43,810 nt of DNA from Bacteroidota bacterium (lineage in GTDB: Bacteria; Bacteroidota; Bacteroidia; Chitinophagales; UBA2359): contig JAHDBT010000007.1 of NCBI GenBank assembly GCA_020630215.1, forward strand, positions 1-43,810, in the 5' to 3' direction. The position numbers and the translations under genes are program-made. Positions within the stretch are counted from its first letter, which is position 1. Each line of letters begins with the position of its first letter. This document shows positions 5,101 through 26,730 of the stretch, piece by piece. The notes below the pieces were generated by a model. That model was not told the DNA's origin and ran no database searches. It saw only the letters and a program-made list of their open reading frames with translations.

Positions 5101-7634
5101 CAAACCCTGGTACCGATAGCCTCTTTATTGATAATATTAGCTCTAACTTAGATAATTTTGTTACCAATATTACCAGCATTACCCTAGCACCTTACGACAG
5201 CACTACCATAGAAGTAATTTTTGTGCCTCTCGAAATGCAAGATTACGATGCAACGATTACTATTGCCAACAACGTAGGCGATGTAGTAATAAATGTAACT
5301 GGTGTTGGACAAGGTGCGCCTATTGGCAACATTAATCCCGAAGGTGTAGAAGCCATGCTTTTAGCGGGCGAAAGTACAAGCCAAACCGTTAGCATTAGTA
5401 ATACAGGAGCTGGCCCACTTAATTTTAACAACCTTGGCAACAGTGCCCAACCTGCCGAAATATTATTATTGAGTTATGGTGCGGCAAATTCGTATACGGT
5501 TATTGAAGACTTGCTTGCCGAATATTACGACAACTACAACTTTACAGAAATAAACACCAACGATGTAAACGATTTAAATGATGCCCTAGAAGGCAAAAAT
5601 ATATTAATTATTCCGCCGCAAGAAACCTTTGCAGTAAACCCTGCCGTTTTAGCGACCTTTGTTGCACCTTTGCAAAATTTTGTAAATAACGGAGGCACCA
5701 TCATTTACACAGGCACCTCCTGCGAAAACTGTTTAAATGCTGCGGGCTTTTTTGATGCTTCTTTTTCGCTTACCATTTTATCCGACGAGCTAACCGTTCA
5801 AAATGCCGAACATCCAATTACACAAGGTTTTCCCGAAACCTTTTTGCTCGAACCAACCGTTTACTCCTACGCCTTTAACAATCCAGACCTTAATATATTG
5901 GTATCCGATTTTTTAGGCGGAACCGTTGTTGCCTACCGAGAAATAGGTATTGGAAAAGTATTGTACTTAGGGCATAACTTTCAAAATCCAGTACCCGCTA
6001 TTCCGCTGATGTTAACCAATGCCCTCGATTGGGGAAGGGGCAATTTACCCGATTGGTTAAGCATATCAATTTATGAAGGCACTCTAGCAGTAGGAGAAAC
6101 CATAGACATAGACATTAACTTTGACGCAACCGATATGCTGGCAGGCACTTACGAATTTACCCTTACCTTTTTTACCAACGATCCTGATAATCCGATTATC
6201 TTCCTCCCTTGCACTTTAATGGTAGAAACTTTCCCACAGGCTAACTTTAGCTCTAACCAGCAACTAAGCTGCGATGGCGTGGTAAACCTCGAAGATATTT
6301 CCTTAAACTTCCCTACCTCCTGGTACTGGGATTTTGGCGATGGCAACACTTCCGAAGAGGAAAACCCTAGCCATACTTATGCCGAAGAAGGCACTTATAC
6401 CGTTAGCCTAGAAGCTTGTAATGATATAGGCTGCGATACCCGAATTAAAGAAGATTATATTACCGTTGATTTTGCCTCTTTGTTTTGCGATACCATCCCA
6501 ATGCCTACTACGCCAGAGGTAGAATTGTTTACGGGCTGCACAGGCGTACTAACCGACCCAGGAGGTAATGAACCCTATGAGGATGGGCTAATGGGCATCA
6601 TTACAATTGCGCCTCCCGATGCTTACTTGCTAACCCTGACCTTTAACTTTATGGATATGGAAGCCTGCTGCGACTATATACGCATATACAATGGAACCGA
6701 TAATGTTTTTGGGTTTTTAGGTACTTTTACAGGCGCAGCATTGCCCAATAGCCTTGGCATTATAGAAGCCAATTCGGGAGCAGTAACCATTGAGTTTTTT
6801 AGCGATGAACAAGCAAGTACTAGCAGCTTTGAAGGATTTGAGGCATCGTGGCAATGCGCTGTTCCTACAGAAGCACCAGCCCCTAATTTTGAATTTGACA
6901 TTTTAGAGGATTGTGCAGGCACTACTATCTTTACCGATTTATCTGCCTATCAACCTAGTTCGTGGAATTGGGATTTTGGCGATGGCACGACTTCCGAAGA
7001 ACAATCACCAACCCATAGTTTCTTGCAGAGTGGCACTTATACCGTTAGCCTAGAAGCTTGTAATATTGCAGGTTGCGAAACCTTTAGTCAGGAGCTAACC
7101 GTTAGCGATGTGTTGTTTGTTAATTTTACCACACTAGGTACAGTAGAAGTTGGCCAAGTAGCCTTTTTTGAAGACCTTACCGAAAACGCCATTAGCTGGC
7201 AATGGAATTGGGGCGATGGCTCCTTGCCTGTTAATGGAACCGCTACCCCCTTGCATGTATATGAAAACCCAGGCGTTTATACCGTTTCGCTTACCGTAGA
7301 AGATAGCGACGGCTGTAGTAGAACCGTTAGCCAAGTTATTGATATTGTGCCTGTTGGAATTGGAGATTTACCAGCCCCTCAAAGCTTGCAAGTTTACCCT
7401 AACCCTGCACAAGATGTAATACATCTGCAATGGACGCAAGCCGAAATAAATACCTTAAACAATGCAGTGCTAAAGATGTATGATGTTACGGGAAAACTTA
7501 TTTTTGATAAAACATATCCCAATGCCCATTCCTTACCTACCAATATGAACTTAGCCCATTTACCGCAAGGCAGGTATTTTATTTTGTTGGAGATGCAAGA
7601 TGGAGTTGTTGTAGAATCGTTTGTAAAAAAATAG
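2154..7634 (+). CDS. Large secreted T9SS cargo with CUB, PKD and triplicated GATase-like/choice-of-anchor-D modules (1826 aa)
   Basis: An N-terminal Sec signal peptide (about 1-23, hydrophobic then LKAQ) is followed by a CUB-like domain (25-150, with YDYLSIYDGP) and a PKD domain (155-232, WDFGDGNTS). Three repeated modules follow (about 234-543, 643-953, 1054-1357). Each starts with an NTG.G.L strand and carries an alpha/beta segment with GGTI..G..., reminiscent of the class I glutamine-amidotransferase fold. Each ends with a beta-sandwich containing GTY...TNDP.NP.I. Choice-of-anchor-D-like domains (VDFG-type, TDSL) separate the modules. The C-terminal part has PKD, a second CUB (about 1445-1570), two more PKDs and a type A T9SS sorting domain (about 1745-1826, VYPNPAQD). 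It is expected to be exported and anchored or released by T9SS. Its role is unknown; adhesion or matrix binding is inferred from the domains. No protease or glycosidase active site was recognised. Confidence 0.9.
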   Translation: MKLTNFPILLLFFLLATTTLKAQTILMPEDGQGETQILCEGTIQDPGGDEDYPGNMDGWLTIAPAGSGELVLTFTQFNMEFGYDYLSIYDGPDLDAPLIGQFSGTDLPGMAGATDGIIIASEQVLTLQVLSDPTVNYEGFTATWATGTTSGGTPEADFETPPSPLAFNAAITFTDASTNADGWLWDFGDGNTSTEQNPTHSYTQSGDFEVTLTINNCYGEMATTSQTISVQEAPIVSASPSSLEATLAFGDSLTLPININNTGNGNLVLNITGAALSSEKDLQILALVNGANTDNEYLNALEAIATLPVDYQLIELTTYDAEELANALVGMDVLWIPEQAECDSIAFSSFMPVLQSFANLGGTIVMNGSNQHECIFNTGLFEGEYIGFANGEVSLNNPEDPILEGVANPYEALNITYLFDITNTDATRLVEYDNGDGIYDILCYRNIGEGKVILINHDFLFHNEDIDRILTNSLQTNSEASLLNWLFIPLNEITIEPGGSWELLVEFNATTVYGGTYQTDLVIATNDPNNPQIIIPCTIHIEGTPDFAIAPETIDFGEAIVGQNIAQTIQIFNPGTDSLYIQNITVNNPAFSLSTTSLGVYGGNAFEIVTLTFSPTEITNYDATLTIETNIGVFDIPISAIGLGAPLVSVTPTPVNITVNAGETTTFPLSISNTGEGPLTFEMDTSLLVKDLQILAYINGADYINEYTNTLDALNLYYTDYDLTETATENPGELADLLVDKQIMLVPEIEDFSTTSIFTVLGNTMEEFVANGGTIIFTGTSGTNPLFNSGMMSGEQRFDSFLQAEVLEEHPIVDGLTDLFFPSNGTYPALFYEDDIIDLVVQEDTQYGGYSSIVAYRPIGNGNVVFIAFDYFEYDEKTALVLGNTVQWVADELVSWLDFDTTSGTLDFPAESTIDLAIDATDLLGGTYTTEVVIFTNDPLNPTITIPITLTVIGIPQINVSETTLDFGNVIISTFETLSFTITNPGTDSLFIDNISSNLDNFVTNITSITLAPYDSTTIEVIFVPLEMQDYDATITIANNVGDVVINVTGVGQGAPIGNINPEGVEAMLLAGESTSQTVSISNTGAGPLNFNNLGNSAQPAEILLLSYGAANSYTVIEDLLAEYYDNYNFTEINTNDVNDLNDALEGKNILIIPPQETFAVNPAVLATFVAPLQNFVNNGGTIIYTGTSCENCLNAAGFFDASFSLTILSDELTVQNAEHPITQGFPETFLLEPTVYSYAFNNPDLNILVSDFLGGTVVAYREIGIGKVLYLGHNFQNPVPAIPLMLTNALDWGRGNLPDWLSISIYEGTLAVGETIDIDINFDATDMLAGTYEFTLTFFTNDPDNPIIFLPCTLMVETFPQANFSSNQQLSCDGVVNLEDISLNFPTSWYWDFGDGNTSEEENPSHTYAEEGTYTVSLEACNDIGCDTRIKEDYITVDFASLFCDTIPMPTTPEVELFTGCTGVLTDPGGNEPYEDGLMGIITIAPPDAYLLTLTFNFMDMEACCDYIRIYNGTDNVFGFLGTFTGAALPNSLGIIEANSGAVTIEFFSDEQASTSSFEGFEASWQCAVPTEAPAPNFEFDILEDCAGTTIFTDLSAYQPSSWNWDFGDGTTSEEQSPTHSFLQSGTYTVSLEACNIAGCETFSQELTVSDVLFVNFTTLGTVEVGQVAFFEDLTENAISWQWNWGDGSLPVNGTATPLHVYENPGVYTVSLTVEDSDGCSRTVSQVIDIVPVGIGDLPAPQSLQVYPNPAQDVIHLQWTQAEINTLNNAVLKMYDVTGKLIFDKTYPNAHSLPTNMNLAHLPQGRYFILLEMQDGVVVESFVKK

Positions 7635-7651
7635 ATCTTTTCGATCTATTT
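7629..7651 (+). terminator. Hairpin overlapping the stop codon of the 1826-aa gene
   Basis: A perfect 9-bp stem (AAATAGATC / GATCTATTT) with a 5-base loop includes the TAG stop codon. The trailing T-run is weak, so this may be an RNA-stabilising hairpin rather than a full intrinsic terminator. The larger palindromic repeat starts 21 bases downstream and could add termination. Confidence 0.45.
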
Positions 7652-7671
7652 ATCGAAGTGGTTTACACTTT

Positions 7672-7798
7672 TTGCTGCAAGCCAAGAGGCTTGAGTACCG
7701 TTTGGCTCAAGCGAGACGCTTGACCCTGCGTTCCTTTTTTGTAAAAAAAGAACGCCTGGCTGGAGCGTAACGGCTTCAAGCCTCCTAACTTGCAGCAA
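7672..7798. repeat. Palindromic intergenic repeat, copy 1
   Basis: This 127-bp imperfect palindrome has outer arms TTGCTGCAAG / CTTGCAGCAA, then GAGGCTTGA / TCAAGCCTC. The core stem is GCGTTC plus a T-run against an A-run plus GAACGC. It lies between convergent genes, where it could terminate transcription both ways. About 55 bp of one arm recurs in inverted orientation at 12393-12518 and 26464-26730. Smaller nested stems are visible (CTTGAG/CTCAAG, CAAGCG/CGCTTG). Confidence 0.75.
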
Positions 7799-7833
7799 TT
7801 ACTTTTAAAATTTAGAGTAAATAGGTCATTTCC

Positions 7834-8616
7834 TCAAATATTAGGAACAATAGCAGGTTCCCCAACTTGCGTTAATTTATACTCCATGTACTTAAATTTT
7901 CGCAAGGCTTTTTCTGCGTATAAGCCAAAGTTGAGTCCGCCAGCTTTAAAGGCTTTGCGGTGTGCTATCCAAACACTTAGCGTAATTACGTAAAATAAAA
8001 CTTTGTAAAAAACAAGACTTATTTGTTTACCCCAAAAACTTTTATGAGCCACAATTTGGCTGAGGCGTTCTTGCTGAAACTTAATGTGGTAGGCTTCATC
8101 TTTAAGAATATCCACACAAATTTCTTTAAGTAGTTTACAGTTGGTAGCATCGTGTACCGCCTTGTAAAAAATTTGCGCATAACTCTCTACAATAATTACC
8201 GTAATGGTCCACATTTCAATGCTGGTATTAAAATAGCGCACCCATCTAAAAAGGCTATCTCCTAAATCCCATTTTTTTCTTTTTTCTCCAATTAAATCTA
8301 GGTAGCGTCCTAGGTTATTTCCATGTTTTTGTTCTTCTTTAATAAATAAACGAATGGCTTGCAAATAGACGGGGTCGTTAGTGGCAGCAGCATATTTAGT
8401 AGCGGCTGCAATTAAATGTTTCCCGTCAGAAGTTTCGCCTAATTGCCAGGCTTTTAAGGAAGGGATAATGCGCTTTTTTTCCTTGGAAGTAATGCTAGGA
8501 GCCTGCTGCCAATTGACCCGCTCTTGTGTTAAATTGTGCTGAAAATGTTGTACCCAAAAATGAGCAGTAGAGGCATTGCTTAAAGACAGCGGCGATGGAT
8601 TGCTTTTGTTTTTCAT
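7834..8616 (-). CDS. Ferritin-like diiron protein (260 aa)
   Basis: The sequence fits a ferritin-like four-helix bundle. It has an ExxH pair in a central helix (E95/H98, in EEQKHGNN), an acidic residue in the next helix pair (E134 or E144), and a second ExxH with preceding Asp (D173, E174, H177 in DEAYHIKF). These residues are the usual ligands of a carboxylate-bridged di-iron site. A hydrophobic stretch at about 198-217 might touch the membrane but is more likely a helix of the bundle. There is no signal peptide, so it is probably cytoplasmic. Substrate is unknown; the family includes oxygenases, desaturase-like enzymes and iron-handling proteins. It is transcribed convergently to the 1826-aa gene with a palindromic repeat between them. 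The start is the ATG at 8616; no alternative start is better. Confidence 0.75.
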   Translation of the reverse strand: MKNKSNPSPLSLSNASTAHFWVQHFQHNLTQERVNWQQAPSITSKEKKRIIPSLKAWQLGETSDGKHLIAAATKYAAATNDPVYLQAIRLFIKEEQKHGNNLGRYLDLIGEKRKKWDLGDSLFRWVRYFNTSIEMWTITVIIVESYAQIFYKAVHDATNCKLLKEICVDILKDEAYHIKFQQERLSQIVAHKSFWGKQISLVFYKVLFYVITLSVWIAHRKAFKAGGLNFGLYAEKALRKFKYMEYKLTQVGEPAIVPNI

Positions 8617-8763
8617 GATGAGATAGGTTTAAAATGATGTTCAATTTTAATGCAGATAGATATACAAGGAAGCAGAAGAAAGGTTCACTAGGTAATTGCC
8701 AGCTAATACCGTTTGTGTGAAAAATTGATTTAGTTTTTTATCATCGCAGATTACGCAAATTAG

Positions 8764-9048
8764 CACCGTAAGGTAGCATTGGAAACAGAGATGGACTTAA
8801 TAGTTACCCCTAACCCTGTGGTAGACCAAGCTACGGTAACCTTTAGTATTCCTACTACCGAACGAGCTAGTATTAGTTTATTTAATGTAAATGGGCAAAT
8901 CCAAATTCCGTTACAAGAAGAGGTATTTGATGCCAACACTTCTTATCAAATCCCAATAGCAGCTCAACATTTAGCGAAGGGGATTTACATTTGTCATTTA
9001 GTTACGGAAAGCGGCTTGCAAATGAGTAAGAAGGTGGTGATACATTAA
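8764..9048 (+). pseudogene. Orphan T9SS sorting domain, 5'-truncated remnant of a giant cargo gene
   Basis: An open frame of about 89 codons (TTG at 8779, ATG at 8791) encodes only a type A T9SS sorting domain. About 90% of its residues match the last 85 residues of the 4454-aa protein; both end KKVVIH. Similarity continues a few codons upstream of the TTG (RKVxL in both) and stops at an in-frame TAG at 8761-8763, which points to a truncated copy rather than a designed small gene. No signal peptide is present, so the fragment could not be exported by itself. The shared 3' untranslated sequence and terminator (9294-9361) show that the whole gene end was copied. It could still be translated, or serve as donor for gene conversion. 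Confidence 0.75.
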
Positions 9049-9085
9049 CCCATTTTCGCCTGTAGTTTCTAAATTCAATTTTACT

Positions 9086-9225
9086 GGTTAAATTGCTAAA
9101 TAGTTAAATTGTTTTACCTTCTGGCAAAAGCAACTTACCAAAACTTCCTTTTAGTAAACTTTTGGAAGTCTGCTTCGCCAGCAGATAAAAAAACAATTTG
9201 GCAATAAAGCCATTTAGCAATAACC
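9086..9225. repeat. 140-bp imperfect palindrome (MITE-like)
   Basis: The arms start GGTTAAATTGCTAAAT on the left and, read from the right end on the minus strand, GGTTATTGCTAAAT. They continue with matching blocks (AAATTGTTTT, CTGGC, ACTTCC, CCAAAA) to a centre near 9150-9165. It sits exactly where the copied 3' end differs in length from the parental 3' end at 26295-26324, so it looks like a later insertion. No open reading frame is inside. Confidence 0.55.
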
Positions 9226-9325
9226 AACAAAAGTTGGGGACTACATAGGCAACCTGGCTTAAGCTTAGGTAGCTTCAAACACTACAATCAAATAATGGTT
9301 GAGATATTAGTTTGATTAGTAAGAT

Positions 9326-9362
9326 AGCCAGTCTGTTTGTTTAGCAGGCTGGCTTTTTTTTA
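9326..9362 (+). terminator. Intrinsic terminator
   Basis: Stem AGCCAGTCTG / CAGGCTGGCT (one G-U pair) with a 9-base loop, followed directly by a T-run. It is the counterpart of the terminator after the giant gene and ends the sorting-domain remnant. Confidence 0.8.
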
Positions 9363-9572
9363 TTTTTTATTACCTGCTCCAAGTCCATTTTCCTAATAGA
9401 GAACTTATTACACATATCACATTACACATTTTTAGTGGATATTTTGTATAAAAAAAACAAGGTAACATTAAAAATTTTGTCATTTCGATAAAATAGAGTA
9501 ACTTAGAGTGTCACAAAAATGCAATTAAGTGATTATTATTTTTCAATAGTCAATTGTTTCAACCATCATATA

Positions 9573-12389
9573 ATGAATACCACATTCAAAACACTAAAAT
9601 CACAACTTCCAGATACAATAGGTAAAGAACGTATTGACTTAATTTTGCAAATCATAAGAGCAGCGCTTTATCATCCATTTGAAGAAACAAAGTCTTTAAT
9701 AGAGGAAGCAAAAGAAGTAGCTAAGGATTTAGGGAAAAAGGAAGTGTTGATGGAGGTGTTTTATGAAGAAGCTTATTTCTATGGAGAACATAAAGCGTTT
9801 GAGGAAACCTATAAGATTTTAGAAAAAATATTAGTGTGGGCAAAAGAAAAAAAGAATGATCCTTTACTGGCTAAAGTATTGTTTAAATATGCCACTTGTT
9901 ATAGGGGGGAGTTTAATTTTTCAAAAAGTAGAACCTATTATTATAAAGCATTAGCTATAGCCGAAAAAAATGATTGGAAAAATCCTCCTCAACCCATGAT
10001 TTACAATAATATCGGTCTCACTTATTGGCAGGAAAATTTGAAAGATAAAGCGGCCGATTATTTTCATAAAGCAATAATTGGTTTCAAAAAATTTGGGCAA
10101 GAACCCAATGTTGCTTTAGCTTACCACAACTTGGCATTAGTGATGCGTGATCCATTAGAGGTAATTGACTATCTTAAAAAAGCAATTGACATCAACTTGC
10201 ATTTTGAAAATTCATTAATGTTATGTCGAAATTATAGATTAATTGCTACCACCTATAAATCCATTGACCAAAGCACCGAGGCTAAAAGTTATCTTTTAAA
10301 AATGTTTGCTATTGCGGAGGAAATAAAATCACCCAACTTTATTATGCAAAGTTGTTACCAAATGGGGCAATTAGCAGTAGTAGGTGAAGATGAAAATGCT
10401 TTAAAAGAAGCCAAAAAATGGTGTAATAAACTGTTTAGCCTCCTCCATAAAGAAACAAAAATGGATCGAATTACAGAAGCCTATTTTCTAAGAGCCAATA
10501 TATACCTGAAAGAAAAAAAATATGAAGCCATTAAGCTTTCCATCACCGAATTACAAGCCCGCATTGCTACCCACAATTTGCCTAGACGTGTACACTACAA
10601 CATCGCCTATTTTTTATATTTAGCTTATGAAGGCCTAGAAGATTTTAAAAATGCTTTTATCTATTTAAAGAAGTTTATGGCAGAAGAGAAAAGTAAAAAT
10701 GACCTAGAAATTCAAAAGAAAACAGAAGAGATAAACACACAATACGAAACCAAAGAAAAAGAAGCTGAAGTAAAACGCCTACAAGAAATGGAGGAAATAA
10801 AAACTCGTTTCTTCTCCCAAATTACCCACGAATTACGCACACCTCTCACCCTCATTCAAGGCCCTGCTCAACAAATTTTAGCCGCCAATGCTTATCCCAA
10901 AATACAAGGGCCAATGCAAATTATTAACCGCAATGCCAACCGCTTATTACTACTCGTTAATCAGTTGCTAGATGTAAACAAACTAGAAGCTAAAAAAATG
11001 GCACTTAACAACAGTCATGGTGATTTACCACCCTTTGTTGAAGCCATCATCTATGCCTTCCAAACATTGGCCAAACAAAAGCAAATACAACTAAACTTTA
11101 GCAGCGATGTAGACGCTTTAATTGTAAATTTTGATGTCGATAAAATCGAAAAAATACTCTACAACCTCTTATCAAACGCTTTTAAATTTACGCCCACAAA
11201 CGGGCAAGTAAAAGTGCAGTTATTGCTATTAGATACGATAGAAGAACAAACACAAAACATTCAAATTACCGTAGCCGATACTGGCAAGGGTATTAGTAAA
11301 GCAGCCCTCCCTCACATTTTCAACCGCTTTTACCAAGCCGATGATAGCTACACCCGTGAAGCCGAAGGAACAGGCATAGGCTTATCACTTGTAAAAGAAT
11401 TGACAGCATTAATGAATGGCAATATTGAAGTACAATCAACACTAGGAAAAGGAACAACCTTTACCCTCTCCCTCCCCCTAGAAATCTCCTCCAAAAAAGC
11501 TATACAAACAACAAATGAAAAAGAATTGAAATTAAAAACCGTCCTTCCTGCATTAAACTACCAAACAACAACTAATAGCAATCAAACATCCTCTGAAAAG
11601 AAAAAAACAAACGCTAATGCCAAGCCCACCCTATTACTCATCGAAGATAATACAGACATACACCAATACATCAAAAGCATATTAGAAAAAGAATACAACA
11701 TCCTAGCAGCTTACAACGGCAATAAAGGATTAGCAATAGCACAAAAACAAATTCCCGATATTATTATTAGCGATGTAATGATGCCTGGCAAAAATGGTTA
11801 TGAGGTGTGTAACATCATAAAAAATGATGTAGCTACCAGTCATATCCCCCTAATCCTCCTAACCGCAAAAGCAGCCCTCTCTAGCAGATTAGAAGGACTA
11901 GAACAAGGCGCAGATGTCTATCTCTCCAAACCATTTAGTGCAGAGGAATTACGCTTGCAAACCCACAATTTACTAAAAACCCGTAACAACTTACAACAAA
12001 AATATCAGGACTATTTACTAGGAAACCAATCACCAACAAATGCCCACACTAGTCTAAATCAAAAAGAAACCACCTTTCTACAAAAAGCCATTCAAATAGT
12101 AGAAGCACACCTTAGCGACGAATCATTTACAGTAAATAAATTGGCCAAAGCTTTGCATTTGAGCAATTCTCATTTATACCGTAAAATACAAGCTTTAACC
12201 AACACCACCTCCACACAGTTTATCCGCAATATTCGTTTGGCTAAAGCTAAAGTAATGCTAGAAAATCAGGTGGGCAATGTATCCGATATTGCCTTTGAAG
12301 TAGGGATGACTCCTAACTATTTTACCAAAGCATTTACAAAACAGTATGGCTATTCCCCTAGAGCATTGCTTACCAAAACTAATAACTAA
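9573..12389 (+). CDS. Soluble hybrid two-component regulator: TPR, histidine kinase, receiver, AraC DNA-binding
   Basis: One polypeptide carries both sensing and output. It has an N-terminal helical TPR region (about 40-385; YNNIGLTYW, ALAYHNLAL), a short coiled coil and HisKA (phospho-accepting His about 419 in THELRTPLTL). HATPase_c follows (N531 in NLLSNAFKF; DTGKGIS; GTGIGLSLV), then a receiver (phospho-accepting Asp about 734 in SDVMMPG; Lys in SKPF) and an AraC-type double HTH (about 836-936). Unlike classical hybrid two-component systems of polysaccharide loci, it has no signal peptide, periplasmic propeller or membrane helix, so it probably senses through TPR partners in the cytoplasm. 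An upstream ATG at 9519 would add 18 residues; 9573 was preferred because the hydrophilic, family-like part begins there. The giant surface-protein gene follows, and a direct-repeat site upstream of it is a candidate target. Confidence 0.9.
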   Translation: MNTTFKTLKSQLPDTIGKERIDLILQIIRAALYHPFEETKSLIEEAKEVAKDLGKKEVLMEVFYEEAYFYGEHKAFEETYKILEKILVWAKEKKNDPLLAKVLFKYATCYRGEFNFSKSRTYYYKALAIAEKNDWKNPPQPMIYNNIGLTYWQENLKDKAADYFHKAIIGFKKFGQEPNVALAYHNLALVMRDPLEVIDYLKKAIDINLHFENSLMLCRNYRLIATTYKSIDQSTEAKSYLLKMFAIAEEIKSPNFIMQSCYQMGQLAVVGEDENALKEAKKWCNKLFSLLHKETKMDRITEAYFLRANIYLKEKKYEAIKLSITELQARIATHNLPRRVHYNIAYFLYLAYEGLEDFKNAFIYLKKFMAEEKSKNDLEIQKKTEEINTQYETKEKEAEVKRLQEMEEIKTRFFSQITHELRTPLTLIQGPAQQILAANAYPKIQGPMQIINRNANRLLLLVNQLLDVNKLEAKKMALNNSHGDLPPFVEAIIYAFQTLAKQKQIQLNFSSDVDALIVNFDVDKIEKILYNLLSNAFKFTPTNGQVKVQLLLLDTIEEQTQNIQITVADTGKGISKAALPHIFNRFYQADDSYTREAEGTGIGLSLVKELTALMNGNIEVQSTLGKGTTFTLSLPLEISSKKAIQTTNEKELKLKTVLPALNYQTTTNSNQTSSEKKKTNANAKPTLLLIEDNTDIHQYIKSILEKEYNILAAYNGNKGLAIAQKQIPDIIISDVMMPGKNGYEVCNIIKNDVATSHIPLILLTAKAALSSRLEGLEQGADVYLSKPFSAEELRLQTHNLLKTRNNLQQKYQDYLLGNQSPTNAHTSLNQKETTFLQKAIQIVEAHLSDESFTVNKLAKALHLSNSHLYRKIQALTNTTSTQFIRNIRLAKAKVMLENQVGNVSDIAFEVGMTPNYFTKAFTKQYGYSPRALLTKTNN

Positions 12390-12392
12390 TAA

Positions 12393-12518
12393 CCAAAGGC
12401 TTTCATACCGCCACACGCTAGCCTAAAGACTAGAACAGGCGTTCCTTTTTATAAAAAAAAGGAACGCAGGGTCAAGCGTCTCGCTTGAGCCAAACGGTAC
12501 TCAAGCCTGTGGCTTGCC
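12393..12518. repeat. Palindromic intergenic repeat, copy 2
   Basis: This starts 4 bases after the hybrid regulator stop codon. The right half (GGAACGCAGGGTCAAGCG..., CAAACGGTACTCAAGCC) is the near-exact reverse complement of copy 1. The left half (TACCG, CGCT, AGACT) is more degenerate. The core is GCGTTCC plus T-run / A-run plus GGAACGC, which may terminate the regulator transcript. Confidence 0.7.
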
Positions 12519-12929: not shown

Positions 12930-15900
12930 ATGCATTACAATCTCAACCATCTTTTTCTGCTACTTATTTGGTGCTTACTACCAACCAGTTTATTCGCCTA
13001 CGATATAGTAAACGATGTTAGTCCTGACGATGCAACCGCAAGCCAACTCTACGGTACAGCCGTTGCCGTAGGACAAGAAACTGTAATTGTTGGCGCACCT
13101 GGCGATGACAACAGCGCAGGCGCAGCCTACATCCAAACCTACAATCGAGCAACAGGAATATGGGAAGAAACCGAAAAACTGACCGCCAGCAACGCCGCTG
13201 ATTTCGACAACTTTGGCGAGGCAGTAGCTATTACGAAACCCATAGAAACAGGAGGCGAATTTTATGCAGCCGTTGGCGCACCACAACAAAATGCGGGGCT
13301 TGGCGCAGTGTATGTGTACCAATTTGGCAGTCAGTGGACAGAGGCACAAGTAATTACCGCCCCCGATATTACCCCCAATTTACGCTTTGGCACTTCCATT
13401 GCCATGAGCGATGATTTACTATTAATTGGTGCAAGTGGCGACATCAATTACGGCTTAGATGCTGGAGCAGCCTATTTATACAAACGCTCAGGCAGTAGCT
13501 GGATGTTTGTAGATAAAATACATGCCACCAATAATTTAGGCAATATTGAAGCTACACCAAGCGAATTGTTTGGGCAAAGTGTTGGAGTAGATGGAAACCA
13601 TTTAATAATAGGAGCACCGCTAAATCTTAATAACTTAGGACAAAGAGTAGGTGCTGCCTATATTTTTAATTTTGATGCCACTAGCAACAGCATTTCCTTC
13701 GTACAAAAATTAAACGCCCAACAAACAGGCGGCGCAAACGATGCAAACAATTTTGGTTACTTTGGCTATAGTGTGGATATGGCAGATGGCTATGCTATTA
13801 TAGGCGGCTATGGCGATACGTCGGCAGGAGCTAATACAGGTGCAGCATACATATACGAACTCAATGGCGCAACCTGGCAAATACACGAAAAATTACTCGC
13901 CGCTACTTCAGCAGCTAATAGCTATTTTGGTTGGAGCGTTGCCATCGAAAAAAATGGCGATGTACCTATTGCCGTTGTAGGAGCTAAATTTTACAACAGC
14001 GCACAAGGCTCCCTAAATGTATATGCTTTTGATGGAACCAACTGGACAAACAATAGCGAAGAAATTTTAGCAAGTACTACTACCGCTCAAGCACAGCTAG
14101 GTTTTTGTGTAGGTATTTGTGGCGCAGTTGTAGCAGCAGGCGCACACCAAAATACAAACAATGGCTTTAACTCAGGAGTAACTCAAATTTACGAAATGGT
14201 GGCTATACCTAGCAATTTAGTAGCGAGTGATGGCACAAGCGAAACAAGTGTAAGTGTTACTTGGAACAACCGTTCTACTACACAAAACGATGTGCTTTTG
14301 TGGAAAGATGAACAACTAACACCTTATACAACCAATACAACTTTTAACGATAATGCGGTTACTTTTGATGAAACCTACACCTACTGCATAGCTGCCGAAC
14401 ATGTAATGTGGGGCAACTCTCAAATGCTATGCGATGAGGGCTTTATTTTAGAAATGGCCGCACCAGTAAATATACAAGCCACAAACACCGCTTCTGGACT
14501 TACCAATTACGAAGACCATATTGATGTAACTTGGAACAATACCACAACAGCCACTAATTACCGTTTAGAAATTTATAAAAATGGCAGCTTAATAGAAGGC
14601 CTACCTACTAACCCTACAGCTACTTACGCAAACGCCGCCGCAGCCCCAACAAGCTATACTGACTACGATGTACTATCGCCTTCTACCAATTATGCTTACG
14701 AATACTGTTTACAAATTTACGAACCCATTTTTGCCAACCTATACGAAATAGAAATTCCTAACTTTGGTGTAGCTACCTATTTAGGGACTAATGTGGATAT
14801 TACCACCAATCAATACGGAGACCTTACTTATCATTTTTACAACGAAGCGGGTGAAATACATTCAACTTACGAAGATGTAACTGGACAATTAGTACTGAAC
14901 CAATTTCCTGCACCTAGTGGCCCACTAACTACGTACACATTTATATACCCCAATTATACCGCTACAATATTCCCTCCCGAAACAGATGCCGTAGTTGATT
15001 CCTTAAACGAAGATGGTAATGTAGTACAAGTACTAGCCCTTGATGCAAATGGCGAAGTAATTGCCCAATGGAATGTACCTGATAGAGAAGTGGGTAATGC
15101 CGCCTATTTCAATACTATTCAAGCTACAACACCTACCGAAGTTGGACGAGCTAAAGAATCGGTACAATCGTGTAGCAATTTAGGAACCATTGATATTGGC
15201 GCACCAACTAATGTAACTGCTTCTTATGCATCAGGGTTTATTGATTTAACTTGGACCGACAGCTCTGCCTTAACCGATAGCTTTTTTATTTACCGTGACG
15301 ATACTTACATAGGATTAGCGACAAGTAATACCTTTACCGACTATGCCGTACAATCGGGTACAGCACATTTATATTGTGTAACAGCCGTAGCCTATTTGCA
15401 TGGCGAATCGCAAATAAGCCCAACAGGTTGTGTAGAAGCAGGTTTTAATTTAGCAACACCTACCAATGTAGTAGCAAGCAATAATTTAGAAGACCAAGTT
15501 GATCTAAACTGGACCTACCCCAACCTAAGTGCTATACAAGGCTATTATGTATATAAAAATGGTGTACTCATTGCCGATTTACCTCCCTTCAATTCCATAT
15601 TTACCGATACAGAGGTAACTACAGGCAACACTTATAATTACTGTGTAGCCGCCTACAATATAGCCAATGGTACAAGCGATAAGGGTTGTGCCGAAGGCAT
15701 TATTGATTTGGCGGATGCTAGCCCTATAACAGCTTCAGATAATACTTTTGAAGATAAAGTAGAAATAACTTGGACCGATAACTCTACCGTAAATACTCAT
15801 TACCGCATTTACCGTACAAAAGTACCACAAGCTACAAACGATACCATTTTAATTGCCGAAGTGCTAGATGGTACGATCAGCTTTGACGATACCAATGTGT

Positions 15901-18900
15901 TATCGAACGTAGTATACGAATATTGTGTGGAAACCTATAGCACCACATTAGGTGCCGATATTAATCAAGTATGCGATATAGGTAGTGCTTTAATTTTTAG
16001 TCCTACCTTTACAAGTGCTTCGCAAGGCACGTCTGCCACCCAAGTTAATTTAGCCTTTAATTATGCAGGTGTAGCTACTAATATTAACATTTACCGCAAC
16101 GACGACCTTATTGCAACCGTACCTACTACCACCACCACTTATACCGATGTAAATCCTCCTAGTAATATACAAAGTACTTATTGCCTTATTGCTACCCAAC
16201 CAGGGCTGGGCGAATCCTTGCCTGCTTGTTTAAATGGTTGGACTACTACAACGCCCAATACACCACCTGCTGCTGTGCCTACGGCTATTGTGCCTAACCA
16301 AATTATTGATGATGATTTTACGTCAAATACTAGAAGCATAGCCGCCGACGAACATACTTTGATAATTGGAGATGGAGATAATGATCAAGCACGTATATGG
16401 GTTTTGAGTGATGGACTTTGGAGTTTTAGTCAAGTCATCTCAAAAATCCCCCTAGATGATATTAAATCTGATTTTACTGGAGGCCCCGAAGATGATGTTG
16501 ATTATTCGGATGATAATAGCACTTTTGGCAATAGTGTTACTATTGATGGGAATCAAATTGCAATAGCTAATGCGGGTAGAAGGGTTACTGAAGTAATATA
16601 CGATTATAATACTGCTTCTGTATTTCCAGATGTTACGTTTTTGCTTACAGAAGGTTTAATATCGTTTTATGAGAAGGATGCTTCTTCAGGTTTATGGCAA
16701 CTTGTTCATGCACATCAAAATACTAACTTTAATCAGGCTGAATATGTAGGAGTTGATATTTCTATGAGTAATGGCAAACTAGTAACAAGTTATACTTCTC
16801 CACTTAATGCTATAAGAGTATTCGAATCAACTAACTCAGGCTGGGAAGCAGGCACTTTTTTTCCAGGCATACCTAGCTTAAATCCATCTATTGCACCTAT
16901 TAATAGTGTTGCAGTAAATGGCAATTACCTTGCCTTAGCTAACGATGCTAGTTCAGTTAGCTTTAACGATTTCCCAGCGCTTTCAAATCCACCTATATTC
17001 TCAACAAACAGTGCATCTAGTTGCGCTATTAATAATAACCAAGATGTTATAATAGGTGGATATGAATCGGGATTGAACGAATATGTATACATACAAAATA
17101 ATGACGGTAGCAATCAAGTTGTTTTTGCTGGCAACGATTTTCTACCAATCGTCAATAATTTTGGCAAGCAAGTCGCTGTCAATAACAATCATATCGTTGT
17201 TTCGAGCGATAACCATGTTACGATATTTGATAGACGGTCATCAGGCACCTGGTCTAGATATGAAACCCTAGAAAAACAGAACCCAGATGCTCGTGGCGAA
17301 GTTGCTATTGCTGGTAAATCCGTATTTTTTAATACAGCAGATGGAGTCATGCACTACGTTATTCCTCCACGGGAATTAACTGCAACCAATGGAGAATTTA
17401 CTGATAAAATTCAGGTAAAATGGGAAGGCTATACCAATTATGATGAGGAACTAGTAGAAGGTTTTAAAATATACCGAGATGATGATTTCTCAAGTCCTAT
17501 TGCTACAACAGCCAACATCAATATTAATAGCATCGACGATGAAAATGTTGAACCAGGTAACATCTATAAATACTGTATTAAACCTTATCATTCTAACTGG
17601 GCAACCGACCATCCTATAGAAACCGTTTGCGCTACAGGTTACGCACGCAGCACAGGGCAAATATCAGGCGATGTAACTACGATTTCTCAAATAGGCATCC
17701 CCAATGTACAAATTTGTGCAGAAACAACAGGCACTACTTACTCTATGAAGTTTGACGGGGTAGATGATTATGCCGAAACAGCCAACAATATTCCTTTGTA
17801 TAACCGAAGTTTTACCATAGAATTTTGGGCTAAAAACGAAATAACAGGTATTGACAATATACTCCTAAGTCATGATAAAGACCAAACATTACACCGCCAT
17901 TTACATATGGGTTACTTAGCAAGTGGTCAATTTAGATTTGGCTTTTGGGGCGACGACTTAGATACGCCTACTGCCTATGGCGATGAAGGTGAATGGCATC
18001 ACTGGGCATGTGTGTACGATACAATAAGCATGTTAAGAACAATTTATAGAGATGGAATAGCAGTTGCTAGTGATAACCCTGGTGGGCATTATACAGGTGC
18101 TCGCAAACTTAATTTTGGCAGCTATAAAGATACCGATTACGGCAAAGGTCAACTCGACGAAGTACGTGTTTGGGATTATGCTCGTACCGCTACAGAAGTG
18201 GCCAATAATTACCAAAACATTATAGGCGGCAACGAACCTGGCTTAATAGGCTATTGGAATTTTGATGATCCGCAAAATGGCAATCTTACCCGCGATGGCA
18301 AAGTAGGTGTAGGCAATCATGCCAACGTTTACAATGGAGCAGTACGTACCTACAACACCCCGCTTAACCTATCTTACTGTGCTTTTACCAGCATTGATGG
18401 CAGCTACCAAATAATAAACCTGCCTTTTAGTGATACAGGTATTACTTATGCCGTAACACCGTTTTTTGATAGTGGAAGTGGGCCACATGAATTTAATCCA
18501 ACACAACAAATTAACCAACTAACTACCGTACAAAGTACCGCTAACTATGTTAACTTTACCGATAATACAACCTTCTCTGTTTCTGGTACGGTAAACTACG
18601 GAAGTGCCAACAATTATTGCCCTGTAGACAGTGTGGCTATCTACCTAGATGGCACTTATACAGGCGTACTTACAGATGATTATGGTGATTATAATATTGT
18701 AGTAAACAACCCTGGCGAACATGAAATAGCAGCGGTATATCCAGACAATTCCATACCACACATCATCAGCAACTCGCCACAAACCATTAATGTACAAAAC
18801 AATATTACTGATATTGATTTTACCGACATCACCAGCCGCAGCTTAATTATGAGTATTGGTGGTGCTTGTGGTGCCGATATTGGCATAGCCGATTACGAAA

Positions 18901-21900
18901 TTAAAGGCGGTTATAGCGATTGCCTAATCCGTACAGGCACTACTGCTGCTAGTGGAATAGCCGTAATAGAACATTTACCGCCCGGCCAATACAATGTAAA
19001 AATAACCGATATTCCCAACAGTTTTTCGGCCGAATACTACTTTGCCAACCTAAATATACAAGTAGATTTAAACGAGCAAGATTCTACCTTAAACCTAATT
19101 TACAACCGCCCATTTGTAGTAGAAATTACCAACTTTGATGAACTCCCCCTTACCTGTGAAGGCGATAAATGGGTATTTGAACAAAACGAAACCTACAACC
19201 TAAACTTTTTAGTGTACCAACAATTTCCTGATGGCACACAATGCCCTGCCGAAAATGGCAGCCTGTTTATTAACGACAATATCTCTGGATTAGGTAGTGT
19301 AAACCTACCTATTGCCGATGACGGTACGGCTAGTTATACCATGATTGCAGGCGCACCAATGATTATTGAGCCATATACCCAATCCTTAACCCTTACCGCA
19401 CAAGTAAATGGTGTTTTAACACCTTCCCAAACCGTAGAAGCCATTATTACAGGTGTACGCCCAAGAACCGCTACGTTTGTTACTTTAGTAGAAAATTTAC
19501 CCGACCTTATCCTACGAGACCCTCCTGGCGATAATAGCCATAGTTATGTAGATGCAGGACAACAGCGATGTTATGAAAAAGGCTTTTATTACAATACAAC
19601 GGATGGGCTCAATCTTAAATCACAAATTAAATTCGGCATTGAATCTTGGTTAGGTTTGGGGATAATCATTGAGAATAAGGCAACGGGCTATATAGGTTTA
19701 GATATAAGTACTGGCTTTGAACATTCACAGGATAATAGCACCGAATATTGCATCAATTTTAACGAAACATTTTCGACCTCTACCAACCCATTAATACCTG
19801 GCCCACAAGGAGATTTGTTTATGGGCAATGGCTTAAATTATATTTACGCCCTAAGCGATGAGGTAACTTACGATGGCTGTATGGCTCAAAGATTGGATCC
19901 CTCCATTAATATGTTACCCGACGATTTTGTTACCACCTATATCTACTCCAGATGGCATATCGAAAATGTGCTACTACCACAACTAGCAAACGATTTCCAA
20001 TCAGCCGAGCAAACCATACAAGCCAATGCAGCCAATAGTTTAGCCAATTGGCAAAATATCCTAGCAATGGATGAGTCCATCTATGCCGTATTTACCCAAC
20101 CTTTTAACGACCTTGGAAAGCCTGATACTGCCGATTTAGCCGCCTACGGCTATGTTCCTGATGAAGGACAAAGCATTGGAGATTACAATGCCGCTTATAA
20201 CGAAGCCTATCAAGATGTTGTTAATACCAATGAAGACCGAAACATCCTTACTGGCTTTCCAGGCGGATATACAATTGACAATTTCAATAATTATCCAACC
20301 AGTGAAGGCTATAGCCCCGTTTATTTAATTGGAGAAACAACGTTTAATGAACTTCCAAGTAATGCTATTGATGCTTTTGAAGAACTTGGCAACTTCCCCA
20401 ATCCAGTCAATTATTCTTTTGATGGAGGCGTTAACTATCAGTACAGCACTACCGTTGATAGAAACTGGAAAGCAAGCGCACAAAATGGCTTTTTTATAGA
20501 TGCACAAGTAGGCGTTGGAGCTAAAGTAGAAGCTGGTGGCAGTGGATACGACCAATATTTTGGTGCAATAACAGAACACCATGTAGGAGGCACTGCTGGA
20601 GAAAGCTCTAACATTAACTTTACTACAGGTTTTGAGTTTTCGGATGACGACCTCGGCGATTTCTTTACCGTAAATGTGAATAAGGATTTTGTTTATGGCA
20701 CTTCTGTTTTTGATTTACGTTCTGGTAGAACAAGCTGCCCCTGGGAGCCTTGGATTTACGACGAATCTGACCCCGACGACCGCCCTCGCACCCAAAGCCG
20801 TGATTTACTAGAACTACAACTCCTTGGCTCAGATACACAAACAGGATTAGACCCAAGCGAACCTGCTAATTTTGTAGTACGCCTATTTAACTGGAATGAA
20901 AGTGGCGAATTTAGAGCTTATGCTTTAAGTGGCATACCAGATTACAATCCGCATAATGCAACCATAAAAGCCAATGGTGCTCAAATTACCAATAGCAATG
21001 CACAATACTGGATAGATGCACAAGATTTCCTAGATGTAGATGTATCCATTACAAGAGGCCCCGACCATTACGATTATGTAAACGACTCTATTGCATTACT
21101 GTATTATGTTCCTTGCGAATATGCCTTATTTAATGATGGCGGCAACTTAGTAAATGCCGATACCCTATGGCTAAAAATTGGCTGGACTCCGCCTTGCAAC
21201 AATATCAGCATTATCGAACCTTACGAAGGCAAGGTTATCAACAGTCAATACCTCATCGAAAAGCAAGATACCATCGAGGTGGCACTAGGAGGCATTAATA
21301 CCGAAAACCTTAGCAAAATTGATTTTCATTACGTGCAATACAACCCAGTAACAGGAGCAATTATTACTACTTCCGCAGGTATCAGTCCTTGGACTTTTAT
21401 TAACAGTATTGACACCGCCTACATTAATGCCGACCCAGATTTTGACAACCAAACTGGACTAGTTAGTATTCCGTTGTGGTACGTAAATGGCTTGCCAAAT
21501 GGCTACTATAAAATTAGAGCAACCCCCCATTGTAATGTTATTAATAGCACCCTCGGCGCGCCAGATGTCACTACAGAAGTAGCTGGCTCCCCACAAATTG
21601 TCAACATCCAAATTAACAACAACAACTTCACCCTGCTAGGCTACACCGAACCTACCGACGGACTACTAGAACAAAGCGACCCCATTTTTGTACGCTTTAA
21701 CGATGATATTGATTGCGGCTATACAGATGTACAAAGCATTGTAAGCATTATTGACGAAACAACAGGTACAATAATACCCGATTGGGAATATACCATCGTA
21801 CCAGAACTAGTATTAGGACAATGTGGCGACCAAATAGATATTGTATTTAATAATGGCATCTTAGCCAGTCAATACGAAGGACATTTACTAACCGTTACAA

Positions 21901-24900
21901 TTGACACCTTAGACCAAAATTTACATCACGTACAAGGCAATGCTGGCAACAGTTTGCAAGAACCAATAAGCTGGTCATTCGTAGTACAATACAACTCCGT
22001 ATTCTGGAATCCATCCTCCTATAGTGGAGCTAACGAAATTACTATTTACGGTGGTACAGATACTACTTTAACCGCTATTTTAGATAATACCCGACCAGGC
22101 AACAGAGCCTACGATTTAGTAAGTGGCAATGGTTTCGCTCCTTGGATGTCAACCCCAACTCCACAAAACCTAGCACTAGGTTCTAACGGGCAGCAAACGA
22201 TTAGTTTTACGCTCAATCAAAATCAAAACTTAGCTCCTGGCACTTACCAAGATACCATCATTGCTAATATTGATGACAATACATTAATTGATAGTAGCGG
22301 CGATGCGGTGAATGATAATGATGTTAATTTTGTACCTGATTTACCAATTACCTTAAACGTACTACCCGTACCACCAAACTGGAACATCCCTACCAATCTT
22401 AATCCAGCCGATTATCAATACGATATGACGATGTTCTTACAGCTAGATTTTGATGTGCTAGGATACAATCCGCTTAACCCAAGTGATGATCCATTCGATA
22501 TGGTAGCCGCTTATGTGGATGGCGAACTAAGAGGCCTAGCCAATGTAGAATTAGTCAATGGCGAATACATAGCCATCCTAACCGTTTATAGCAACGATGC
22601 CAGCAATACAGAGGAAGTGACCTTCCAAATGTGGGATGCAGATATTGCAAATGGCATCTTATATGGCGGCGAAATGTTGAACGATGGCGCACTAACCGTC
22701 AATGGCAACTTAAGCATTGGTATAGGCGCAGCCAACACCTATGTACAAGCCGTTCAGTTTACGAGTAATGCCATCATCGGTTCCCCTGCAGAACCTCACC
22801 CAATACATGCTTATGGCAGGGTACAATGTTTCGACTTAGTACAAGGCTGGAACTGGATTTCCTTTAATGTAGCAAGCCCTGATATGAGTGTGGCAGCCAT
22901 ACTCAACAACCTACAATACGAGCAAGATGGCTACGAATTAAAAACGCAAAACGATTCCTACATCCGTTATAGCAGCGCACTTGATGCTAACGGACAAGCA
23001 TTAGGATGGAGCGAAGGAGACTTAGCAATGGTTAACAACGAAGAGGGCTACTTACTCTACGTATCTAACCCAACAGGCGACCATTTATGCGTAGTAGGCG
23101 AACCTTACGACTATGCAAATAATACCATTGATGTAAGTGATGCAGGCTGGCATTGGGTAGCTTATACTAAGCAAGACCCAACAGATATTAACACCGCTTT
23201 AGCAAGTATGACCCCAGCTACAGGCGATTTAGTGAAAACTAAATTACGTCCTACAGGTATCGAATCCTCCGTATATGATGCGCCTAGCAGTACCTGGTCG
23301 CCCAACATCAGCCTAAAACCTGATTACGGCTACAAAATGTACTTAGAAAATGGTTCTAACAGTAACATTGCTTATGCGGTTCCGCAATGGAGCGTTAACC
23401 CACAATGCTACGAAAACTCCATGACCATTACAGGCGTACTACAAATCGATCAAGTAGAAAGTGTGGATATTCAAGACATTATTTCTGCATCCGTTACAAC
23501 AGGTACAGGCGCATGTAATCCAGTAAGTGCTACACAAGGCATCAATTACATACAGTACATTCCAGCATTGGATCGCTACTACGTATTCTTAACCGTTTAT
23601 GGCGACCAAATCTCTAATGGCGAAATTATTACCTTTAGTGCTTATGATGCCAATGTAGATAGTGTATACACCGTAAGTAATTCCCTAATTTTTAACGATG
23701 GCGACCGTATTGGCAGTTTCGACAATCCGCATGTATTTATTATTGGCACTTGCCCAATACCTGTTATCACCTCAACAGAGGAAGGATGCAGCGGGGCAAA
23801 CAATGGTACTGCAACAGCTAATGCCATTACTGCTTGTGGATTAAGAGGCCATGATTGCAACACCCCTACCCTTTATCAACTAGGCACTAGCACAACTAGC
23901 AACGATGAAGTCAGCCCATTTCAATCTGGCTGGTCGGATGCTCGTTACCAATTTTTATATACCGCCGAGGAGTTAAATACAATGGGAATGCACGAAGGAA
24001 CGCTTAGTAGTTTAGCCTTTAATGTATTGCAGAAATTTAGCAATGTACCATTCAATAATTTCAATTTAAAACTGAAATGCATTGACGATGAAGCCTTAAC
24101 GCCAAGCAACTTTGAGTCGGGCTTAAAAACCGTTTACTCAGGCAATTGGACAACCCAAACAGGCTGGAACACCATCAACTTCCAACAAACTTACGATTGG
24201 GATGGCACGTCTAATTTACTAGTAGAAGTTTGCTTCGATAATGTAGTTGCCAACTACTTTACCGATAAAATTGCGAGTACCGCCACTACCAATATTAGCA
24301 CCATATCTATGTACGATGACAATATGGTTGGCTGCGATTTCCTCTATCCATTATACGCACACAACGAACGTCCAGATATTACGCTAGGCGCATGTAATGT
24401 AAGCTATGTTTGGAATGATGCCAATGGTATAGCTATTGGTCAAATAAATGCTACTGCTACGGGTTTAGCAGGCGGCACTTACCAAGTAGCAAGCACGTTT
24501 GGCAACGGTTGTACAAGCACTACTAGTGTAGTAATTGGTACTACGCCAGCCATGACATTTACCACCAATAGTATTGCCGTAAGTTGTACCGATTTAGGCG
24601 AAGCAGGTATTGCAGTTGCTAGTGGAGGCACTCCCCCATTTACTTATCAATGGGACGATGCGAATGCACAAACAGCCGCAACTGCTACAGGCTTAAACAC
24701 AGGTACGTACTATGTAACAATTACCGATGCTAGTGCTTGTAGTGCAGTAGAAAGTGTAGTAGTAGCGGGTATTCCTGCCCCTTACTTAACCGTAACGGCT
24801 ACGGGCATAGATGCAGGCTGTATACCAGATGGACAAGCAACCGCAACACCTGTAAATGGTTTAGCACCATTCACCTATATTTGGGATGATGCCGATGCAC

Positions 24901-26294: not shown

Positions 26295-26356
26295 TTAATC
26301 AGCTTTAAATATTATAAGTCAAACAATGGTTGAGATATTAGTTTGATTAGTAAGAT

Positions 26357-26410
26357 GGTCAGTTTGTTAAATGGCATATAAAATGTTACTTTATCAGACT
26401 GGCTTTTTTT
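26357..26410 (+). terminator. Intrinsic terminator of the giant gene
   Basis: Stem GTCAGTTTG / CAGACTGGC (with G-U pairs), a loop of about 28 bases and a strong T-run (26404-26411). The preceding 32 bases (26325-26356) are identical to 9294-9325, before the terminator of the sorting-domain remnant. Confidence 0.65.
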
Positions 26411-26463
26411 TAAAAATTAAAAAATCCTAGTTCTAAGATATTTGGGGGCCAAATTTCAATTAT

Positions 26464-26730
26464 GGAAGCCACAGGCTTCAGTACCACTACGCTCCAGTCT
26501 GGAGACTGGACCGGCAGTCTGTGAAAAAACTCCTTGTTTTCAATTAGTTGCAAAATTTTTAAATGCTTAATATTCAGTAAGTCATGCGAATTGAAAATAA
26601 ATAAAGTGCAATGTATTGAGCTAGGCTTTGTTTTTTCACAGACTGCCGGACGTTCTTTTTTTTTATAAAAAAAGGAACGCAGGGTCAAGCGTGCCGCTTG
26701 AGCCAAACGGTACTCAAGCCTTTGGCTTGC
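26464..26730. repeat. Palindromic intergenic repeat, copy 3 (interrupted)
   Basis: The right arm (26655-26730: GGAACGCAGGGTCAAGCG, CAAACGGTACTCAAGCC, GGCTTGC) is nearly identical to copy 2. The left arm (GCCACAGGCTTCAGTACC, CGCTCCAGTCTGGAGACTGG) pairs with it but is split by a 131-bp insert. Removing the insert restores an uninterrupted palindrome like copies 1 and 2. Confidence 0.7.
26515..26645. mobile_element. 131-bp inner MITE-like insert
   Basis: Termini CAGTCTGTGAAAAAAC and GTTTTTTCACAGACTG form a perfect 16-bp inverted repeat. CCGG flanks both sides (26511-26514, 26646-26649), making the inverted identity 20 bp because CCGG is a palindrome. CCGG may be a 4-bp target duplication or part of the ends. 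A shorter internal inverted repeat (TTTTCAATT / AATTGAAAA) is present. No coding capacity. Confidence 0.6.

Follow-up and report, generated by a model that had tools for sequence, protein, structure and literature searches.

Why should a T9SS sorting domain stand as an orphan, with a terminator of its own, some 17 kb away from the closely similar end of a giant cargo gene? The question arises in a 43,810-nt stretch of DNA (hereafter the window) comprising positions 1 to 43,810 of the forward strand of contig JAHDBT010000007.1 from a Bacteroidota bacterium (UBA2359; GCA_020630215.1), whose genome is a fragmented draft of 767 contigs with a contamination estimate of 5.02. The giant gene (12930-26294, plus strand) encodes a 4454-aa protein with FG-GAP_2, Laminin_G_3, SprB repeats and a sorting domain. 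Between it and the orphan domain lies a plus-strand gene (9519-12389) for a 956-aa hybrid regulator with TPR, HisKA, HATPase, receiver, and AraC-type HTH domains. The left neighbour of the orphan domain is a divergent gene on the minus strand (7834-8616), the 260-aa product of which belongs to no Pfam family at E<=0.001 and has relatives in 6 of the 39 other genomes searched: identity is 33-57% in five, and the sixth is a partial match at 30%. A repeat of about 70 nt (GGAACGCAGGGTCAAGCG...) stands on either side of the giant gene as direct copies at 12446-12517 and 26659-26730 (92%), with an inverted copy at 7687-7750, and the giant gene could be lost or gained via the direct copies.

The orphan domain, read on the plus strand from 8770 to 9048 with its stop codon included, aligns without gaps to the last 279 nt of the giant gene (26016-26294), the part that encodes the sorting domain of the giant, at 89% identity over 279 nt. 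A DNA search of the organism's own assembly with the fragment matched the giant gene at 91% over 258 nt (E 4.7e-100). The initial annotation had put the protein identity of the two copies at about 90%; the homology holds, but the figure is 86% over 92 aa and the identity is unevenly spread along the copy. Against the Pfam family PF18962 (Por_Secre_tail) the remnant scores 44.6 bits, above the gathering cut-off of 27, over profile positions 3-75 of 75, i.e., nearly the whole profile, which makes it a T9SS sorting domain by this measure. An in-frame stop codon, TAG at 8761-8763, stands two codons ahead of the alignable sequence, which begins at about 8770 and is strong from 8791. The first description of the locus as an orphan sorting domain with its own terminator hairpin, homologous to the giant's 3' end from just past an in-frame stop, is thus borne out.

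From stop to stop, the remnant spans 94 codons, nearly all of them sorting domain, and the longest frame of the fragment encodes 89 aa from a TTG at 8779, beginning METEMDLIVTPNP... Judged by eye, this 89-aa frame has no signal peptide or hydrophobic leader, and the stop-to-stop frame holds no secreted passenger ahead of the sorting domain, so that neither the Sec signal peptide nor the passenger of a functional T9SS substrate is in evidence. Because both are missing, the remnant is most likely not a working cargo now. In one published account, all T9SS effectors are said to carry a Sec signal peptide, and three orphan CTDs are described as belonging to type B substrates that have one shuttle protein in common (PMC12618676). 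The remnant is unlike the effectors of that account, having neither a Sec signal peptide (by eye) nor a passenger. No clear promoter was found for the fragment, with 3 promoter-like sites seen against 3.0 expected by chance. No stop or frameshift interrupts its 92 codons, and the loss is visible in the absent 5' part only. As such, the remnant has a homologous intact gene whose body it lacks, as a gene remnant should, but no decay inside the frame that remains.

The left edge of the remnant abuts a short intergenic motif on the plus strand (8734-8766, ACCACAGATTACGCAGATTAGCAC type) that recurs at four other places in the genome (C266, C616, C332, and C507), 83-85% identical over 33-41 nt. By eye, the motif stops short at the junction with the remnant, and the in-frame TAG falls within it. 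The initial annotation had allowed that the fragment might be the tail of a longer gene that a sequencing error upstream had interrupted. We reject a simple error of this kind, since a tblastn comparison of the giant's linker with 7601-8830 gave no match, and the whole giant protein, compared with the same region, aligned only to the opening residues of the remnant itself (E 0.007) and, at chance level, to two further places (E 1.2 and E 5.6), with no linker or body among them. A fault of assembly would be another matter: the junction at 8769 could join sequences that are not adjacent in the cell, and the fragmented state and contamination estimate of the draft speak for this. The fragment lies well within a 43.8-kb contig, however, and differs from the giant gene at many sites, and the longest exact run between the two window copies, 41 nt from 8837, sits inside the domain and not at the junction. 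An assembly artefact is the least probable of the explanations weighed here.

If a second giant-like gene once stood at this place, its body is gone from the assembly as far as we could see. No second copy was found in searches with the protein sequence of the central 701 aa, which matched nothing in the genome besides the giant itself, or with the 13-kb body DNA (40 of 155 candidates scored). The DNA search gave 46 short matches elsewhere, the best-scoring at 81% over 97 nt, and all 46 fall in query positions 11668-12312, an SprB-like repeat part, or 12949-13065, a linker.

Homology resumes beyond the stop codon. In the 3' untranslated stretch of the fragment, 9271-9337 is 87% identical to 26301-26368, and 9340-9362 is 91% identical to 26390-26412, so that 9271-9362 (plus strand, terminator stem at 9326-9354) has its counterpart in 26301-26412 behind the giant gene. 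The two untranslated stretches have an exact run of 32 nt in common, a 31-nt part of which was found in 10 of the 357 loci examined, all of them on the window's own contig around the two copies. Both terminator hairpins fold more stably than all 200 of their shuffles, at -20.8 kcal/mol for the fragment and -19.3 kcal/mol for the giant gene, and the four differences between the stems are one-sided with pairing kept each time (by eye). A simple terminator scan detected the hairpin of the fragment and missed that of the giant gene, whose loop region is longer. The fragment's terminator may still end transcription. The untranslated stretch, with its 32 identical base pairs, and the terminator had been taken to be part of the copy from the start, and the sharing is real; in the fragment, however, they do not directly follow the stop codon.

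What separates them from it is a foldback repeat of about 213 bp, from 9049 to about 9262, which the initial annotation missed. The insert is a near-complete palindrome with a minimum free energy of -60.4 kcal/mol, where shuffled sequences average -39.0 (z -5.5), and it retrieved 67 matches in its own genome at E<=1, itself included and some double-counted, with 40 of 154 candidates scored. It thus combines a long inverted repeat with several genomic copies, the others being partial, and we take it to belong to the class of foldback or MITE-like dispersed palindromes. The assignment is putative: the insert resembles such elements in being a near-complete palindrome with partial relatives at many genomic places and is unlike a typical one in that its copies are partial and diverged. 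TTAA stands at 9045 and 9259, but with roughly one copy per 108 nt of the window this tetranucleotide is too common to prove a target duplication.

The differences between the fragment and the giant gene are far from evenly spread. They affect 21 of 69 nt in a first block (8770-8838) and 11 of 207 nt in the core (8839-9048 on the plus strand, stop codon excluded from the count; Fisher 2e-7), a break that none of 20,000 codon permutations over all sites reached. At synonymous sites alone, divergence falls from 0.97 in the first block to 0.21 in the core, a contrast with Fisher p 0.011 when the synonymous counts are rounded. The core holds 8 synonymous changes and 3 nonsynonymous ones, where about 15 nonsynonymous changes would be expected under neutrality (P 2e-4, rising to 0.008 once the low number of synonymous changes is taken into account), given the assumptions that the giant has been unchanged in its residues and the fragment neutral since the split. 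Because nonsynonymous changes are so few against this neutral expectation, the core appears either to have been under constraint during most of the period after the split or to have been overwritten by gene conversion, two causes that so few changes cannot separate. Judging from these counts, it probably belonged to a working gene, or was being overwritten, until fairly recently. Either reading agrees more readily with a gene that once worked than with an old, loose copy, though the numbers are small.

This pattern bears on the idea that there was never a full second gene and that local recombination placed a copy of the 3' end alone, sorting domain through terminator, at 8770. The copy does begin almost exactly at the sorting-domain boundary, as such an event would have it, and searches of the rest of the assembly turned up no body. 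Nevertheless, a single copying event predicts even divergence and not a drop in synonymous divergence from about 1.0 in the first 69 nt to 0.21 in the core, and a dead copy should hold more protein changes than the three seen in the core against some fifteen expected. We consider a partial duplication of this kind unlikely.

The same core could have been kept for a purpose, either for expression as a small product or as a silent donor that repairs or varies the giant's 3' end by conversion. An intact frame, few nonsynonymous core changes, the pairing kept in the terminator and a conversion-like break in divergence are all what this would predict. On the other hand, without a signal peptide (by eye) the product would be no T9SS substrate by itself, if the requirement stated in PMC12618676 applies; the count of promoter-like sites equals chance; and the locus has put up with a foldback repeat immediately behind the stop codon. 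A retained function or donor role is accordingly rated as improbable. A related proposal, to which we give a low probability though a somewhat higher one than to the preceding, is that the orphan domain might act as a standing gene-conversion partner of the giant's 3' end, with sorting signal and terminator homogenised or varied across 17 kb. It overlaps in part with the relic reading set out below, and if it were true, conversion and not selection would explain why a conserved core lies beside a diverged first block.

The initial annotation had gone further and proposed that a loose sorting cassette, moving by recombination, could spread through the genome and convert genes into T9SS cargo. 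The extent of the fragment, a sorting domain with a terminator, is right for such an element. In the own-assembly DNA search, however, the giant gene was the sole coding match among the 28 listed (40 of 137 candidates scored), the remaining ones falling in the foldback insert or the giant's untranslated stretch, and the fragment's DNA did not turn up in any third cargo gene. The protein sequence of the fragment's sorting domain had 81 matches in its own genome, of which the 79 besides the window copies are at most 40% identical; the best match outside the genome reached 45%.

A DNA-level alignment of the sorting domains of the genome, the check that the initial annotation itself had suggested, was performed on the places retrieved by this protein search, which scored 150 of 180 candidates, and by a PF18962 search, which scored 150 of 408 first-look candidates and listed 150 matches. 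Together with two window places, whose coordinates were set approximately by hand and one of which (37600-37874) is out of frame, these gave 185 distinct places. Comparison with flanks covered 184 of them, 183 being usable; C733:9318 was the one left out, and a further match of the protein search, C615:21855 on the minus strand, is not among the 185. In the all-against-all comparison of sorting-domain DNA, 82 of 16,836 pairs matched, and 23 did so at >=75% identity over >=150 nt. Among the 23 strong pairs, 15 are also alike upstream in protein or DNA (within 500 aa or 300 nt before the sorting domain, less where the available stretch was shorter), 7 lie within one tandem FG-GAP family, and 1 is the window pair itself. 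None of them joins unrelated genes, and near-identical copies at unrelated cargo genes were not seen among the 184 places. Nor do sorting domains appear to be specially homogenised, because in the 12 paralogue pairs with both values, out of 19 picked by hand, similarity is higher in the domain than in the 300 nt upstream for 5 and lower for 7, a result that likewise does not favour a moving cassette.

The 3' flanks were compared for 177 places, and 111 of 15,576 pairs match at E<=1e-4. Of these, 17 begin within 30 nt of both stop codons: 8 are paralogues or members of the FG-GAP family, and 9 are motifs of 35-61 nt that sit behind sorting domains without a mutual DNA match at E<=1e-5. Shared 3' flanks as a general cassette are rejected on this composition. 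As an observation on such flanks, motifs of 35-56 nt that begin within about 13 nt of the stops recur at C175, C658, C767, and C307, and also at C281, C31, and C555, behind sorting domains that have no DNA match to each other. At the other edge of the domain, a linker of the form TIGWYWVEPxRRGRGK directly precedes the sorting domain at 17 of the 184 places, including the giant gene (window 25878-26018) and a broken gene at C218, and appears to be a conserved boundary module.

The nearest approach to the cassette idea is the tandem FG-GAP family at C145, C291, C517, and C218, whose members are alike in the sorting domain, the 3' flank, and the start of the next gene and can differ in the last part of the body. 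For instance, the C145 gene and the second C291 gene share all three of these parts, and the 600 nt preceding the sorting domain do not align between them at the DNA level. Pfam hints at the reason: a DUF7619 domain lies in the C-terminal half of the C145 gene and is absent from the 845-aa C291 gene, and both genes are FG-GAP_3 arrays. Across the family, these arrays resemble each other in DNA among the matches listed. The C517 contig begins inside the sorting domain and offers no upstream sequence to compare. These are tandem paralogues nonetheless, and we read the pattern as suggesting domain gain or loss among them and not the capture of unrelated genes. The tandem FG-GAP_3 cargo genes at L199, L200, and L201 (C145, C291, and C517) thus show a variably present DUF7619 part and a conserved intergenic stretch. 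At C218 (L190), a C145-like FG-GAP gene whose upstream DNA is 88.7% identical to that of C145 has an in-frame stop (9080-9082) just ahead of RRGRGK and the sorting domain, at the contig end.

With strong 3'-end sharing staying within paralogue families, the notion of a mobile sorting cassette is contradicted in this genome as far as it was searched, and we regard it as very improbable.

Short sorting-domain frames are not peculiar to the window. Five others occur among the compared places, at C117, C658, C745, C496, and C78. By eye, those at C117 (131 aa) and C658 (136 aa) consist, from stop to stop, of a leader, a short linker, and a sorting domain only, and thus look like small genes (C117:2285-2506 in L108 and C658:1819-2022 in L153). 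Those at C745 (121 aa) and C496 (92 aa) have no leader (by eye) and are similar in this to the window fragment. The frame at C78 (114 aa) seems, by eye, to lie downstream of an open frame that is read in a different phase. For the related genomes G007 and G018, short frames of 89-109 aa with a sorting domain are listed as well.

We looked for relatives of the locus that might preserve an earlier state. No syntenic locus was found in the related genomes, which are of the same family at best, and a contig-level scan of genomes with the giant's sorting domain gave no relative. A search of genome contigs with the regulator retrieved 178 relatives, and in the best 80 of the 178 the best segments are 25-43% identical; the middle of the giant is 23-38% identical to sequences in related genomes. 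In none of the genomes searched did we find the ancestral locus or a full-length gene at the place of the fragment.

A keyword search for literature on T9SS sorting domains with domain shuffling or tandem duplication found nothing. The closest precedent comes from Porphyromonas gingivalis, where recombination between the neighbouring T9SS cargo genes hagA and kgp, with remnants, is described in PMC9328147; the products in the hagA-kgp variants BE1 and BR1 are, in that account, in-frame shortened hagA genes. Domain rearrangement is reported for P. gingivalis surface proteins in PMC5266723. By analogy, the window locus fits the known kind seen at hagA-kgp, with neighbouring cargo genes, near-identical sorting-domain 3' ends, deletion of a gene part, and remnants at the locus. 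It is unlike hagA-kgp in that a bodiless sorting domain is left and a regulator gene stands between it and the giant gene; moreover, a parent strain can be compared for hagA-kgp, whereas the window locus was judged from one genome.

Taken together, the locus is most likely an ordinary genomic relic in which gene conversion may have left a trace and which carries a foldback insertion behind the stop codon. More specifically, we favour, at a probability of about 0.68, descent from a second T9SS cargo gene. A full paralogue of the giant gene would have stood beyond the regulator gene, with the fragment as the relic of its 3' end; its body would have been lost, leaving the sorting domain, stop codon, untranslated stretch, and terminator; because no relative with the ancestral locus was found, the lost body is something we infer. 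The core and the 3' end would have been kept under selection or homogenised with the giant's 3' end by gene conversion, and the foldback repeat would subsequently have been inserted after the stop. In support of a relic, the homology spans all four of the parts left behind, the body is absent, the left edge is a dispersed motif, and leaderless short orphan sorting-domain frames (by eye) stand also at C745 and C496. On the opposite side, the intact sorting-domain frame is compatible with retained function too, and some of the same traces would be expected from a one-step copy of the 3' end that the repeat later interrupted. Either of the two window copies could be the original.

If the relic reading is true, it would counsel caution with draft genomes of Bacteroidota, in which an orphan sorting domain should not be taken for a cargo or a mobile tag before one has looked for a body and a signal peptide. 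That the two copies diverge unevenly also points to the 3' ends of cargo genes as sites at which gene conversion should be examined, consistent with the recombination at hagA-kgp.
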